A stretch of 34,569 bases of DNA from a virus. This document shows positions 1 to 18,787 of this stretch, in pieces; the first letter of the stretch is position 1; every line of letters begins with the position of its first letter. The stretch covers positions 1-34,569 of the IMG/VR virus record IMGVR_UViG_3300042332_001088; one strand, given 5' to 3'. The notes below the pieces were generated by a model. The model saw only the letters and a program-made list of their open reading frames with translations. It had not been told where the DNA came from and made no database searches. Position numbers and translations under genes: made by a program.

Positions 1-771
1 TAGTTTTTCTACCATTCCTTCCAGAACGTCATACTTTTCTTCAGGCATTTCCACATAATGTTGTTCACAAAGTCCCTTAAGACCTTCTAAGAAAGATTCG
101 GTTACTTTAACCTTGATACCGGTCTCCACTTGAAGACGGTTTTCCTCTAGCCATTCTTCTGATACATAATCCAGATAAGCATCTACTCTTTCTTCAAGTT
201 CTTCCTTGATTGCTTGTACTTCTTCCTTAAGAGCGATTTCATACTTGACTTCAAGAGCTTCTTTGAGTTGATTTGCTCTAGTCTTAAGAGCAGCCTCAAA
301 AATAGTGCGAGCCTTTTCTTGGAACTCTTCAGAAAGTTCTTCACCTTCCATAAGAGCATTTACATCTTCATCTACATTGAAGTCTTCAACATAGATTTCT
401 TCATCTAGCTCATCTTCTACTTCTTCATCTTCATCTTCTAGCTCTTCGCCCTCTAGTTCCTCATCTTCTAGAACTTCTTCGTCTTCATCATCTAGAGATT
501 CTTTAACCGCACCGGATGCCAACTTGGGCATGGGTTCGGCAGACTTTGCCTTGCGGTTGACTACATCCTTTACTACAGAAAGGCGAGCGGATGGATCCTT
601 AAGTTTTGCTGAATCATCATCATTCTTATAGTTTTCAGGAGTGGGACCGCCCAAGTCTTCCCAACCTACAGTTTGACCAGGAGGAATATTGCCAGACAAC
701 TTTTGCATTGGTTCAGCGGGCTTAGCACCGCTATTCACTGCAGTTTTTGATTGAGAATTCTTGGCATCCAT
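1..771 (-). CDS. 22: Prohead scaffold core protein gp22 (3' end outside window)
   Basis: Major scaffold of the T4-type prohead, degraded by gp21 during maturation. The frame is open from an ATG at 771 to the window edge, 257 codons without a stop. Residues 1-90 contain two copies of a short motif (GAKPAEPMQKLSG at 15-27, KAKSAEPMPKLASG at 74-87) around VGWEDLGGPTPENYKNDDDS (35-54). Residues 93-129 are a highly acidic tract. From 129 the conserved gp22 body follows: EDFNVDEDVNALMEGEELSE, then QEKARTIFEAALKTRANQLK, RVDAYLDYVSEEWLEENRL and VTESFLEGLKGLCEQHYVEM, a long alpha-helical coiled coil. Because T4 gp22 has 269 residues, most of the protein is probably present. It is followed in T4 by gene 23 (major capsid), which lies outside this window. 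Confidence 0.94.
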   Translation of the reverse strand, partial: MDAKNSQSKTAVNSGAKPAEPMQKLSGNIPPGQTVGWEDLGGPTPENYKNDDDSAKLKDPSARLSVVKDVVNRKAKSAEPMPKLASGAVKESLDDEDEEVLEDEELEGEELEDEDEEVEDELDEEIYVEDFNVDEDVNALMEGEELSEEFQEKARTIFEAALKTRANQLKEALEVKYEIALKEEVQAIKEELEERVDAYLDYVSEEWLEENRLQVETGIKVKVTESFLEGLKGLCEQHYVEMPEEKYDVLEGMVEKL

Positions 772-801
772 ATTGAAATCTTTTTATTGGTAATCTATGT
801 T

Positions 802-809
802 TATTTAGT
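802..809 (-). promoter_or_regulatory. Late promoter box before gp22
   Basis: Minus-strand ACTAAATA, 31 bases upstream of the gp22 ATG, in the 51-base gap after gp21. Confidence 0.55.
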
Positions 810-822
810 AAAGTAATTGTTT

Positions 823-1470
823 TCAGATGTTATTTAAGAAATGATTGAATAGGTCTAATTTCTTTTCTTCTAATTGGCGGGATTGAACTAACTTGTTGAT
901 AGTCTTTTTAGTATTCTCAAGTAACCATTCTTTCTTTGTTACATCAAAGTACCATTCTTTGCCTTCCATAATTCCATTAACAAATGCAGTAGTACAGGAA
1001 GGATCGTGAACAATATCTGCGACAGTTGAGAACATTAGGTCATCGCCTACGATGTTTACTCCTTCATTGGTAGATCTTAAAGAACCAACCGCTCTTGAGG
1101 AAACACCAAAAACAACACCTTCTTCGTGGAGGTTTTTTACGATGTTTCCCATTGGGGTATTAACAATTACAGCCTTTCCTATAAAATTATTACCTTCTCT
1201 TTGGAGAGATGTAATCTTATGGGATACTCTATCATAGTTAATCGTCGGGGCCGCCGGATGATTTAATTCCCCTACGGCCCTATTTTGCTTAACAAAGTTC
1301 TCAATATAATAATTTACGGCATTATTAAGAGTCTGGATCGGATAAACTCTTCCATTTCTGTTTTTAGTTTCAGCCTGACAGAAAACTCCTTCAATATACA
1401 ATTTCTTCTTACCATTTACGCTTTCAGTAAGCATTTTCACATCTTGAGCTTCTTCGGTAATGAGTTTCAT
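823..1470 (-). CDS. 21: Prohead core protease gp21
   Basis: Serine protease of the herpesvirus-assemblin type that matures the prohead by cutting scaffold and capsid proteins, at L/I-x-E sites in T4. Evidence: KLYIEGVFCQAETKNRNGRV (23-42), the catalytic histidine in GELNHPAAP (His71), and the catalytic serine in FGVSSRAVGSL (Ser124 or Ser125, by analogy with T4 His85 and Ser140). DPSCTTAFVNGIMEG (156-170) is also typical. Length 215 against 212 in T4, so it looks complete and active. It lies before gp22, its main substrate, as in T4. The accessory cassette separates it from gp20 and the gp67-like gene, which in T4 are only a few hundred bases away. Confidence 0.96.
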   Translation of the reverse strand: MKLITEEAQDVKMLTESVNGKKKLYIEGVFCQAETKNRNGRVYPIQTLNNAVNYYIENFVKQNRAVGELNHPAAPTINYDRVSHKITSLQREGNNFIGKAVIVNTPMGNIVKNLHEEGVVFGVSSRAVGSLRSTNEGVNIVGDDLMFSTVADIVHDPSCTTAFVNGIMEGKEWYFDVTKKEWLLENTKKTINKLVQSRQLEEKKLDLFNHFLNNI

Positions 1471-7983: not shown

Positions 7984-8250
7984 TCAGTTAGTAAACCCAA
8001 CTTTATTGACCTTAATCGCTGAACTTGTAAAAATGACTTCCGTAGGCAGTTTTTGTAAAAATTCTACGCTATAACGGGGAATAGTAAAAGAATTTGAAGT
8101 GCTCGCTCCGACCGATGTTGAAATGCTGACTATAATTTCACCGCCGGTATCGTTGCAAATTCTAACACAGGTTGCCGAATTGAGACTTGTTGCAGTTCCG
8201 GTTGTAGTTGGAGTTGAAACCTGGGTTTCAATTAGCTTTGTAATTTGCAT
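7984..8250 (-). CDS. Small beta-rich virion protein, unknown function
   Basis: An 88-residue protein predicted from sequence to be all beta: CVRICNDTGGEIIVSISTS, SFTIPRYSVEFLQKLPTEVI and AIKVNKVGFTN. This pattern (nucleotide-free, no charge clusters, VEFLxKLPTDVI-type segment) resembles small structural proteins of marine T4-like phages that I cannot name. It is the first gene after an exact late promoter and is followed after 6 bases by the 110-residue gene. Possible roles are a decoration protein or a fibre collar; neither can be shown here. Confidence 0.7.
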   Translation of the reverse strand: MQITKLIETQVSTPTTTGTATSLNSATCVRICNDTGGEIIVSISTSVGASTSNSFTIPRYSVEFLQKLPTEVIFTSSAIKVNKVGFTN

Positions 8251-15092: not shown

Positions 15093-16775
15093 TTAATAGT
15101 TATATTCCCAGAAATAAGAAGCCGCATCATCATTATCAGCAGTAAACCATACGTTTCCATCCACATCGGTTGTTCCATCCTTTGCAAGAGAAAGGTATCT
15201 TTCGGTTATTTCTGGTAAAAGTTCGGCTGCTGGGGCAAACCCAAATGGTAAGCCTTCATTTTCCTCCATCTCTCTTTCGTGTTCTTCTCTTATATGTTTA
15301 CGAATATCAGTTTCTGTCATTTCTTTAAAATAATCTTGAGTGACAATCCAGGAGAAGAGAACTAAACACATTACAAGGTCGTCATTTTTACCTTCTTCTG
15401 CACTAAAGCTATTATATCTCGATACGAAAGTAGTAAGTTCACCGTAAATATCGGAATCTCTAATTAATAGCTTATCTTCTTCGATGAATTGTTTAAGACT
15501 CATGCAACCTTTACTTTTAACTGGCTTTGACATTTTAATGCCATACTTGACTCCTTTACCTGAGAAATTTTGACCCGCAACTTGACCACCTCTACCTAAA
15601 GTTTTAGTCTGAATTACATTTGGATACCCATATTCATTGTGTAAAATGTCTGCAACGTGTGCATCATTATTGATTTCACATAATACATAAGCATTGTTAT
15701 ACGCCCTAGCAATTGGCTCAATAATATCTGGAAATCTCAGAGATGGGATATTATTATTTCTATATTTTGCGACAACTCTATAAGGTATTTGGGTTGCATC
15801 AAAAACAATAAAGGCTGAATAATCTAATTCAATTCCCTCTGCAATATCTACAGTTATTACATAGATTTTATCTGGTTGTGGTTCTTCATATACATCCAAA
15901 AGTTCCTGATTGCGTATTGGATGATCTAAAACCATATTAGATAGTTTTGCACCACTAATGAGTGTATCAGATGAGCCTAAAAATGCACACTCGTATTCTG
16001 CGTCCCAACGAGACTGACCAATATTTGCAATGGTCTCCTCTTTAAATGCGTTATCATATTTGTCTTGCCAATAAACTCTCATAGGAATATAATTATTCAC
16101 CTGCTTTATTGCGTCATCCCACATTCTATAATAATGATTCATACCCGCCGGGGTTGAAACTATTATAACCTTTGATTCTTTACCAGATGTAATAGTTGGA
16201 TAGACCGAACTCATAAATTCGTCTGCAACTTGGTGAGGTACGAAAGCAAATTCATCAAGAAAGATAATATTATAAGAACCACCCCGCACGGATGATGCCG
16301 AAGTTGAGGCTGAAAAGATTTTAGAACCGTTTTCTATTTCCAATGATGCTTTATTCCAAGAAATAACACCCTGTTGGAGCCATTTTGGAAGATTTTCGTA
16401 ACCTTTCTGTAATCTACCAAGAAGCTCTTTGGCCGTGCTTGCTTTATTTGCGAGGACTGCAATATTTACGTTATCATTAAAAATTGCATAGTGAAGTAGA
16501 AAGGATACCACTGCAGTAGATTTGCCAACTTGACGAGGGCATAACACGATATTGAATCTGTTAGCTTGAAATGCCGATAGCATCCGCTCTTGAAAAGGAT
16601 ACATATTGAAATTTTGCAACCCGTGGTCAAGGGTCACAATTTTCATATATTTCTTTGCAAAATAAATGGGATCCAAAGAGCATCTAGTCAATTCTTCTAA
16701 CTGCTCTACGGTGAGATTAACTCTAGTGTTTGCTTTCTTTAAGAGCGGATTACCAAGATAATGTTCTTCAGCCAT
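15093..16775 (-). CDS. 17: Terminase large subunit gp17 (ATPase and nuclease)
   Basis: Motor that translocates DNA into the prohead and cuts the concatemer. The N-terminal ATPase has Walker A CPRQVGKST at 79-87 (T4 SRQLGKTT), Walker B with catalytic glutamate IIFLDEFAF at 170-178, and coupling motif STPAGMNHYY at 207-216. The C-terminal RNase H-fold nuclease has the expected acidic residues: D310 in VDIAEG, E367 in CEIN, and D465/D466 in GKNDDLVM. TLISG at 271-275 also matches T4. Length 560 against 610 in T4, so all catalytic parts are present and the protein looks functional. The weakly conserved C-terminal tail (about 500-560) is typical in this family. No good ribosome site is visible in the AT-rich leader. 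Confidence 0.97.
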   Translation of the reverse strand: MAEEHYLGNPLLKKANTRVNLTVEQLEELTRCSLDPIYFAKKYMKIVTLDHGLQNFNMYPFQERMLSAFQANRFNIVLCPRQVGKSTAVVSFLLHYAIFNDNVNIAVLANKASTAKELLGRLQKGYENLPKWLQQGVISWNKASLEIENGSKIFSASTSASSVRGGSYNIIFLDEFAFVPHQVADEFMSSVYPTITSGKESKVIIVSTPAGMNHYYRMWDDAIKQVNNYIPMRVYWQDKYDNAFKEETIANIGQSRWDAEYECAFLGSSDTLISGAKLSNMVLDHPIRNQELLDVYEEPQPDKIYVITVDIAEGIELDYSAFIVFDATQIPYRVVAKYRNNNIPSLRFPDIIEPIARAYNNAYVLCEINNDAHVADILHNEYGYPNVIQTKTLGRGGQVAGQNFSGKGVKYGIKMSKPVKSKGCMSLKQFIEEDKLLIRDSDIYGELTTFVSRYNSFSAEEGKNDDLVMCLVLFSWIVTQDYFKEMTETDIRKHIREEHEREMEENEGLPFGFAPAAELLPEITERYLSLAKDGTTDVDGNVWFTADNDDAASYFWEYNY

Positions 16776-16797: not shown

Positions 16798-16805
16798 TAT
16801 TTATC
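16798..16805 (-). promoter_or_regulatory. Late promoter box before gp17
   Basis: Minus-strand GATAAATA, 23 bases upstream of the gp17 ATG. The TAA stop of the preceding gene is the TAA of the box. Confidence 0.65.
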
Positions 16806-18327
16806 GGCACTTCCAACGGCGTCTTGCTGCTCTTCCCCTCGCACGGTTCCAACCTCTAGAACGACTACAAAATCTCTTACGACGTTTTGCTGCCTCACTT
16901 CCAGGTTTAACATCTCCGGTTACAGGTGCCTTAAGATTAGATCCGGTTTCTCTATTATAACGGTCCCTCCCCTTTTGGGTTAACCCACCACCTCTTGATA
17001 CTGGAAGTTTTTCACCCCTACCTACAGATAGACTCGGCCCATCTTCATTTAAACCATTACGTTTTTTGTCAAATAACTTATCATCATTTCTCAGCTTGGT
17101 TATAGTTTTATTATCTTCACTATTTTCCCATGGGCAAGGTTTATCTTTTGGTTTTTCTGGTTCTTTAGGTTGAGTTTCCTTTGACTTTCTAGAATTTTCA
17201 ATGCGCTCTTTTCTTTTCGCGGTTTCTCGTTCTATTCGCCTCTTGTTTAAATTATCTCTAATTCCATCTAAGAATCCTTCATCTATAATATCTGCCTCTT
17301 CGCCAATTGTTTTATTATTGAGTAGATAATTTTTTGATTGCTTATTTGGAACTTGAATTAGGGGTTGGCCAACATTTTGACTACCCAATTTGTAGTTTAA
17401 TACCTTTGCATCGGGATAAACCTTAAGAAGGGCATCTGTAACCTCTCTGCGATTTGGAACTCTAACTTGAGGAAAGAATAATTGAGAAGACATCATCTTT
17501 CCTCTCCACGAGAAAAGAATCTGCATTACTTGACCATTTTGAACGGGCAGCGTGGCCTCTTTGACGCAATTTGGAACAGTTTTACCACTCTTTTTCTTGG
17601 TTCCGATCATTTCATAGCCATCCCAGCAGGGATCTTTTTTCATTTTTTTGACTTCGGAAATAAAATCAAACTGAATATCATTTAGAAGATCTGCAACTGC
17701 CGTAGATTCTGATTGAGTATTCTCCATCTTCTTCAATCTACTATAATAATCAGGCTTTTCGGCAAGATGTTGTAGGGCTATTCCTTCGGCTTCTTCTTTA
17801 TTATTGGTATGCTCTTTTTCAACTTTGGTTCCCATCTTCAACTGGTTCTGTATTTTTTCTACAGAAACTCCATGCTTTTCGGCAATTTTTTGAACACTTC
17901 TTACGGGTTTTGAGTCAGTTTCTTTCTCTTCGGGGTTGCTTGCATCCTCTTCATATAGTGAATTTAATATTTTATCAACGACTGACTCTTTAGTAAATTT
18001 AGGTAGAAGTGGTGTATTTTTTGTCACTTTACTAATATTGGATAGCTTACTTGTTGGAATATTTCTGACCGCCTTTGTACCTGGCTTGGGTTTGGAGTTT
18101 TTATGTTCTTCTGGATTAATTTTAAAGGAGGATTCCTCTATGGGTTCACCAGTATTCATATATTGAGCGGCATCGGTTGTATAATCTGCTGCTCTGGTAA
18201 TTTTGGATTGAATCCAGGCGGGAATTTGTTGATCTTTGGACTTAATTTTGGATTTTAATAGTCTAATATTCTTCTCAATAGTTTCTAATTCAACATTGGA
18301 CATATAACCTTCAGTATCTTTCTTCAT
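16801..18327 (-). CDS. Modular basic protein with DUF5661-like and DUF6321-like domains, between the terminase genes
   Basis: A 508-residue protein of unknown function that looks assembled from at least five modules. First, residues 10-60 with IPAWIQSKITRAADYTTDAA, a short motif common in marine T4-like phage proteins. Second, 144-202 with IAEKHGVSVEKIQNQLKMG and KVEKEHTNNKEEAEGIALQH, resembling DUF5661. Third, 230-256 with CWDGYEMIGTKKKSGKTVPN. Fourth, 262-326, an alpha/beta segment with LFSWRGKMMSSQLFFPQVRV. Fifth, 424-508 (GLNEDGPSLSVGRGEKLPVS to RAARRRWKC), resembling DUF6321. Between the last two lies a strongly charged helix and low-complexity linker (about 350-425). The last 30 residues are very rich in Arg/Lys with two Cys, consistent with nucleic-acid binding. 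Family names are from memory. Position with its own promoter between gp16 and gp17 suggests a link to packaging or head DNA, which is inference. An internal ATG at residue 9 (18303) is an alternative start. Confidence 0.8.
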   Translation of the reverse strand: MKKDTEGYMSNVELETIEKNIRLLKSKIKSKDQQIPAWIQSKITRAADYTTDAAQYMNTGEPIEESSFKINPEEHKNSKPKPGTKAVRNIPTSKLSNISKVTKNTPLLPKFTKESVVDKILNSLYEEDASNPEEKETDSKPVRSVQKIAEKHGVSVEKIQNQLKMGTKVEKEHTNNKEEAEGIALQHLAEKPDYYSRLKKMENTQSESTAVADLLNDIQFDFISEVKKMKKDPCWDGYEMIGTKKKSGKTVPNCVKEATLPVQNGQVMQILFSWRGKMMSSQLFFPQVRVPNRREVTDALLKVYPDAKVLNYKLGSQNVGQPLIQVPNKQSKNYLLNNKTIGEEADIIDEGFLDGIRDNLNKRRIERETAKRKERIENSRKSKETQPKEPEKPKDKPCPWENSEDNKTITKLRNDDKLFDKKRNGLNEDGPSLSVGRGEKLPVSRGGGLTQKGRDRYNRETGSNLKAPVTGDVKPGSEAAKRRKRFCSRSRGWNRARGRAARRRWKCR

Positions 18328-18355: not shown

Positions 18356-18363
18356 TATTTATG
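18356..18363 (-). promoter_or_regulatory. Late promoter box before the 508-residue gene
   Basis: Minus-strand CATAAATA, 29 bases upstream of the ATG at 18327. The TAA stop of gp16 is the TAA of the box. Confidence 0.65.
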
Positions 18364-18787
18364 TTTCTTCGCTAAATTGTTTCTTTATCATCTTTAATGC
18401 CTCTGCAGTTGTTCCGGTAAAAACTACATTATTTGTAGTAACACTTGATGGGCCTTTAGGTCTGATGTCTTCAATATCCTTCATCTTTTGTTGAAGATTG
18501 ATCAATTTGTCAGCAGCATCTGAAACACTCTTAATAAGGTGGCCAACTACCTCATAGCCTCTGGCTGTATCAAGTTCTTGAGCGAGTTCTAGAGCATTTT
18601 GAATAGCCTCTTGGCCCTTTTCTATAATACTATAGTAATTTTCTCTTGAATACTTATAATCGGTTTCAATATCTGTGACTGTTGGTTTTGCCACTGGCTC
18701 GGATTTAACGATCTCCACCTCTACATCAACCGGATTTGCAATGTTAAAAGTATCATTTAATTTGGTAAATTTTTGAGTCCTAGTCAT
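18359..18787 (-). CDS. 16: Terminase small subunit gp16
   Basis: Small terminase subunit, which in T4 forms rings that bind DNA and stimulate the gp17 motor. The central helical region aligns with T4 gp16: YEVVGHLIKSVSDAADKLIN then LQQKMKDIED (78-107) with T4 [20 protein letters not shown] and LHKDMKDITS. The tail NNVVFTGTTAEALKMIKK (117-134) fits T4 NATVFMGSPTELMDEI. It has 142 residues against 164 in T4, mainly through a shorter C terminus. A strong ribosome site (AAGGAG) lies just upstream of the ATG, unlike most genes here. In T4 gene 16 is followed directly by 17; here a 508-residue gene intervenes, and the gp16 stop is inside that gene's promoter box. Confidence 0.9.
   Translation of the reverse strand: MTRTQKFTKLNDTFNIANPVDVEVEIVKSEPVAKPTVTDIETDYKYSRENYYSIIEKGQEAIQNALELAQELDTARGYEVVGHLIKSVSDAADKLINLQQKMKDIEDIRPKGPSSVTTNNVVFTGTTAEALKMIKKQFSEET

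Follow-up and report, generated by a model that had tools for sequence, protein, structure and literature searches.

What does a 508-residue basic protein do when its gene stands between the two terminase genes of a T4-like aquatic phage? The window analysed here, the whole 34.6-kb virus record (34,569 nucleotides), carries one T4-like structural block on its minus strand in the order gp13, gp14, gp15, gp16, X, gp17, gp18, gp19 and gp20, followed further on by gp21 and the start of a gp22-like gene, X being the gene in question. The following features make up the locus:

16801..18327 (-), gene X, a 508-aa ORF with ATG start encoding a T4-GC119-like modular protein, with homologues at the same place
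18359..18787 (-), gp16, terminase small subunit (PHROG 3e-43)
15093..16775 (-), gp17, terminase large subunit (Terminase_6N 1.5e-23), without the insertion found in relatives
823..1470 (-), gp21, prohead protease (Pfam Peptidase_S77 2.7e-37), the proposed processing enzyme
1..771 (-), 5' part of a gp22-like scaffold protein exceeding the window edge, the same protein as in L226 and L229
18356..18363 (-), late promoter CATAAATA, ending 28 nt 5' of the X start codon

PHROG and Pfam matches of the flanking genes confirmed the initial annotation in placing X between the small and large terminase genes. Its claim that X has a late promoter of its own also held. The published late-promoter consensus is NATAAATA (PMC2984593). 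Six of the 12 ATAAATA sites on the minus strand sit 15-29 nt 5' of a gene start, versus 0.5 expected, and the plus strand contains only two such sites. Like X, gp17 and gp18 of the window are also preceded by a late promoter.

The five modules proposed for X were likewise borne out: DUF5661 and DUF6321 lie above the Pfam cut-offs, and the other three are recurring families in our own HMMs.

18157..18318 (-), aa 4-57, module C, a predicted helical hairpin with PAWIQSKITRAADY (own HMM; AF2)
17722..17907 (-), aa 141-202, module G, DUF5661 (Pfam 8.8e-16; AF2)
17563..17634 (-), aa 232-255, module D, a DPCWxGYxxxGxKxKxGxxVPNC hairpin (own HMM; AF2)
17368..17547 (-), aa 261-320, module E, SWRGK alpha/beta domain (own HMM; PHROG 10346; AF2)
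16804..17043 (-), aa 429-508, module F, DUF6321 (Pfam 7.6e-15; AF2 pLDDT 91)

In Pfam, DUF5661 (PF18905) scored 58.4 bits against a cut-off of 27 (aa 147-203, 8.8e-16) and DUF6321 (PF19846) 55.8 bits against 28.5 (aa 445-496, 7.6e-15). Over 221 loci our HMMs matched the AWIQSKITRAADY segment 77 times, the DPCWDGYEMIGTKKK segment 97 times and the SWRGK domain 135 times. X also matched the C-terminal half of PHROG 10346 (7.4e-33), a family listed as of unknown function. The AF2 model of X consists of five folded islands with low-confidence linkers between them, residues 61-141 having a pLDDT below 50. The whole protein has a net charge of +31 (pI 9.7) and module F one of +18 (pI 11.9). Foldseek with the whole model returned nothing significant, as expected from its pTM of 0.24. 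With the DUF6321 model it found no similar fold in the PDB, the matches being other DUF6321 proteins only, and PDB sequence searches gave no match. Neither DUF6321 nor DUF5661 was named in any paper found by literature search. DUF5661 also matched IF2_N weakly (E 0.0012, below the cut-off), and this match was given no weight in judging function.

The initial annotation had implied that a gene between gp16 and gp17 is a rarity. Among the relatives an X-type gene was found there in 51 of 51 loci in which both flanks were visible, and of 103 loci encoding an X-type protein with several modules, 97 had gp16 upstream or gp17 downstream. This weakens the picture of X as a special wedge: the gene's place between gp16 and gp17 and the orthology of its C-terminal E and DUF6321 modules assign X to T4-GC119, a conserved and already catalogued gene cluster of marine T4-like phages. 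Members from Kyanoviridae (S-SM1_115, S-SM2_109, and the 'structural protein GC0119' of S-B43) share with X its place, the C-terminal E and DUF6321 modules and a mosaic N-terminal part; the window protein differs in having DUF5661 and in lacking modules A, B and H. A single GC119 query matched 502 phage records. Sullivan et al. 2010 list GC119 as a hypothetical protein, with function unassigned there (PMC3037559).

Such a constant place could mean that X works with gp16 and gp17 via its basic DUF6321 tail, either as an accessory factor in packaging or as a regulator of the terminase. Stand-alone DUF6321 genes of small phages fit this idea, since they lie near terminase genes: TerL was recognised in 22 of 87 such loci, with a median separation of 426 bp. 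The gap is, however, an insertion hot spot with unrelated genes inside (PMC3037559, PMC2984593), and a passage of PMC2984593 that cites Millard et al. 2009 describes g15 to g18 as a known hyperplastic region. PTOX, gnd and zwf separate the X-type gene from gp17 in S-SM1/S-BM3, and in contig G008 it lies ~22 kb from gp16. Neither terminase subunit, moreover, is in the virion protein list of S-CREM2 (PMC10665884), a phage in whose virions a relative of X was identified. We therefore consider a role in packaging or terminase control very unlikely.

Profiles for twelve modules showed that X-type proteins are shuffled module chains. X itself reads C-G-D-E-F, the S-SM2 protein C-I-A-B-D-E-F and that of DSL-LC02 G-A-L-B-C-D-E-F. 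In unrelated small phages, modules A, B2 and F are also encoded individually by small genes, often mutually adjacent and near a terminase gene; at least 20 of the 87 loci with stand-alone DUF6321 contain an A, B or B2 gene as well. The DUF6321 gene of P-SCSP1u adjoins the capsid gene; its protein is unmentioned in the searched passages of the cryo-EM paper on this phage.

Several relatives seem to carry inserted elements. One X-type gene (L024, 7761-10319) contains an intein-like insertion (Hint, E 1e-3) in the conserved module B motif PSAYA/SGALVKC; inteins tend to occupy functionally important sites. The gp17 gene has 880-911 codons in L011, L012, L016, L017, L018, L024, L106 and phage B23 and is split in L020, the window copy having 560. 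Close relatives may thus have an intein or intron in their large terminase gene that is missing from the window phage. Between gp22 and gp23 of L226, a 261-aa ORF (653-1436, minus strand) that starts MFQKNDERVYDVRSDYYVYHLINPLSWSPFYIGKGKKWRCY resembles a GIY-YIG homing endonuclease; it overlaps gp22, which lies on the other strand.

The linkers between the modules hint at a mode of action. The T4 prohead protease gp21 cuts after L/I-X-E (PMC9026906), and its consensus is present in every linker of X, with all candidate Glu residues inside AF2 low-confidence linkers (a slash marks the candidate bond):

18133..18135 (-), candidate scissile Glu65 (IEE/S), linker C-G, consensus, within the AF2 low-pLDDT region 61-141
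17653..17655 (-), weaker candidate Glu225 (ISE/V), linker G-D, where relatives have ISEA or LKEA
17557..17559 (-), candidate scissile Glu257 (VKE/A), linker D-E, consensus
17278..17280 (-), candidate scissile Glu350 (IDE/G), linker E-F, consensus
17044..17046 (-), candidate scissile Glu428 (LNE/D), directly before DUF6321, consensus

Cutting after E65, E257, E350 and E428 would leave pieces of about 7.5, 21.7, 10.6, 9.4 and 8.9 kDa, the last with a charge of +18. Among X orthologues the hydrophobic residue and the Glu are kept and the middle residue varies (IEES, IDEA, LEES, LDEA at one site; VKEA, VSEA, VTEA at another). In the linkers of 71 non-redundant relatives the consensus [LIVM]-x-E-[AGSD] was enriched about three-fold, with 258 sites where shuffled linkers predict 86 (z about 20). 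When the spacing of these residues was altered as a control, the counts were 100 observed to 88 expected (one shorter), 150 to 85 (one longer) and 111 to 82 (two longer), and the folded modules of these proteins held 3 sites versus 47 expected. Shuffling leaves shared ancestry in these counts, and the offset and module controls remove part of it. Among 20 proteins with mutual identities below 50% the linkers still had 83 sites to 27 expected (z 11) and the modules 0 to 13. Conserved core head and tail proteins showed no consensus excess (203 vs 239 expected). The scaffold gp22 of relatives, which belongs to a T4 substrate class, served as positive control and contained 13-14 sites versus about 5 expected; in gp23 of relatives a single LxE stands at the propeptide end, e.g. 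GMLFE/APS. The protease gene itself is encoded in the window and in six of six relatives tested. A similar protease-like pattern was seen in long proteins (731-1105 aa) of other phages (L115, L119, L120), in which modules are split by repeated QGVAE or QGVTE linkers; over six proteins of this type there were 40 sites versus 16 expected.

The resemblance of this signature to that of gp22, together with the late promoter and the lack of a capsid-targeting sequence on X itself, would suit a scaffold-like component of the prohead core (cf. T4 gp67 and gp68), cut by gp21, mostly removed before DNA entry and serving head assembly. A relative of X nevertheless persists in virions (PMC10665884), the modules are folded and depleted of sites, and a scaffold fits poorly with the extreme mosaicism and with single-module genes in phages that have no T4 head. 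A scaffold role thus appears unlikely.

Further evidence came from N-termini in the gp16-gp17 gap. We scored an N-terminus as T4-like when it matched positions 4, 7, 8 and 10 of the targeting sequence of IPIII, MKTYQEFIAE. T4 internal proteins enter the head via such an N-terminal capsid-targeting sequence; in IPIII residues 4 and 7 serve targeting and residues 8 and 10 cutting (PMC9026906). The pattern occurred in 21 of 252 gap ORFs versus none of 1975 ORFs outside the gap in the same loci, and in 46 of 312 module ORFs versus 8 of 8124 others. Examples are MKSFKQFLSES, MKDLNQFISEA, MKTFKQYITEA and MRTFESFLAEA. Carriers include single-module E proteins (MKSFKQFLSES), the DUF6321 protein S-SZBM1_192 (MKTFKQYITEA) and several unrelated proteins. 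X of the window begins MKKDTEGYMSNVEL and has no capsid-targeting sequence. The idea that linkers of X-type proteins are fossil targeting sequences from gene fusion was dropped: a few do resemble them (LKTFQQFMEDW in L075, KKSFKDFTEG in L005), at a number no higher than chance would give (3 vs 1.3). Over three large contigs the pattern was rare; a 243-kb contig with an X orthologue has it in 3 of 899 ORFs, all three located elsewhere.

Relatives of X have been found in virions. S-CREM2_137, encoded between gp16 and gp17 and containing the E and DUF6321 modules, was identified in purified virions by mass spectrometry with 4 unique peptides (PMC10665884 Table 3), at a coverage of 4.1% and with the authors' remark that carry-over is possible for some non-structural proteins (PMC10665884). 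Its gap neighbour gp136, with the N-terminus MQTFSMFFSED, gave 8 unique peptides (PMC10665884). S-SCSM1_29 is labelled a virion protein in its record, whose authors performed virion mass spectrometry. GC119 of S-SM1 is labelled only hypothetical, although the virion proteome of this phage was determined (PMC3037559), and may therefore be scarce or absent in S-SM1 virions. S-SZBM1_190, a gp16-gp17 gap protein detected by virion mass spectrometry, was dropped as a relative because its sequence is unrelated.

The S-SM1 label and the hot-spot location would both agree with X being an accessory gene with a role inside the infected cell; carry-over would then account for its detection in virions, and its linker signature would have another origin, for example module shuffling at a common linker. 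Such an origin is hard to reconcile with a signature that fits gp21 specificity only when the spacing is correct and that stays conserved as its middle residue varies, or with capsid-targeting sequences on neighbouring genes, and we judge this explanation, too, to be quite improbable.

Taken as a whole, the gp21-type sites in the linkers, the targeting sequences on neighbours and single-module relatives, and the relatives in virions point to X being probably an internal-head cargo polyprotein that gp21 processes and that travels with the DNA. Sequence and literature show the order of the genes, the modules and promoter of X, the enrichment of sites, the neighbours' targeting sequences and the virion relatives. 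X would be expressed late as small domains (C, DUF5661, D, E, DUF6321) on flexible linkers and would enter the prohead core during head assembly. Cleavage there by gp21 would yield fragments of roughly 7-22 kDa, ending with a strongly basic DUF6321 peptide of 80 residues. Like T4 internal proteins, the fragments would remain with the packaged DNA and would probably be delivered into the host together with it. Against this stand the missing targeting sequence of X, the merely hypothetical label of GC119 in S-SM1 and the low coverage of S-CREM2_137 with its possible carry-over. Of the three roles offered by the initial annotation, that of an internal head protein thus gained support from linker sites, neighbours and virions; the packaging factor and the terminase regulator, for which gene position speaks, did not.

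Some distance remains between X and known head cargo. T4 IPI-IPIII and Alt are likewise late, basic, small folded units with gp21 consensus sites, and their targeting sequence recurs on the single-module relatives and neighbours of X. X differs in being a chain of several domains that has sites in each of its linkers and no N-terminal targeting sequence, whereas the T4 internal proteins are single proteins losing only an N-terminal propeptide, Alt losing also a C-terminal one (PMC5694885). Because the targeting sequence is a defining feature of the T4 internal-protein class, X was not assigned to it. The processed ejection proteins of the giant phages phiKZ, 201phi2-1 and SPN3US are similar in being head cargo cut after x-x-E by a gp21-related protease (PMC5694885); we saw no sequence relation to X, and mainly terminal propeptides are removed there.

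The new element is the likely mode of action, the gene itself being known as T4-GC119. More tentatively, and with somewhat less than even confidence, marine and freshwater T4-like phages may join several small effector domains, which are separate genes in unrelated small phages, into one gp21-cut precursor that is loaded into the prohead; the resulting defined cocktail would be injected with the DNA, and the gp16-gp17 gap would be a cargo locus. In T4, IPI inhibits a restriction enzyme of the host, and Alt modifies the host's RNA polymerase (PMC3012670, PMC9026906); by analogy host take-over or anti-defence would be a natural guess for delivered pieces of X. The cargo reading would explain the repeated fusion and reshuffling of small unrelated domains at this locus and would mean that T4-type head maturation includes a polyprotein strategy. 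Aquatic ecosystems widely harbour T4-like cyanophages, and we found no publication that names the internal head proteins or injected proteins of these phages. A rule combining a targeting N-terminus with LxE-spaced linkers in the gp16-gp17 gap would flag cargo genes in hundreds of deposited genomes and give candidates for host take-over or anti-defence proteins.

Two minor observations concern other possible head proteins. S-SZBM1_195 (L045, 14378-14641, 87 aa), which adjoins gp16, ranked third in virion abundance by emPAI in S-SZBM1 (PMC9146016), and by a comparison made by eye only it may be related to an 88-aa ORF of the window (7984-8250). Outside the terminase region, genes with targeting-type N-termini were found in contigs G010 (37107-38360, 47972-49300) and G001 (129659-130105, 132627-133379, 223706-223936), and these are candidate internal head proteins.
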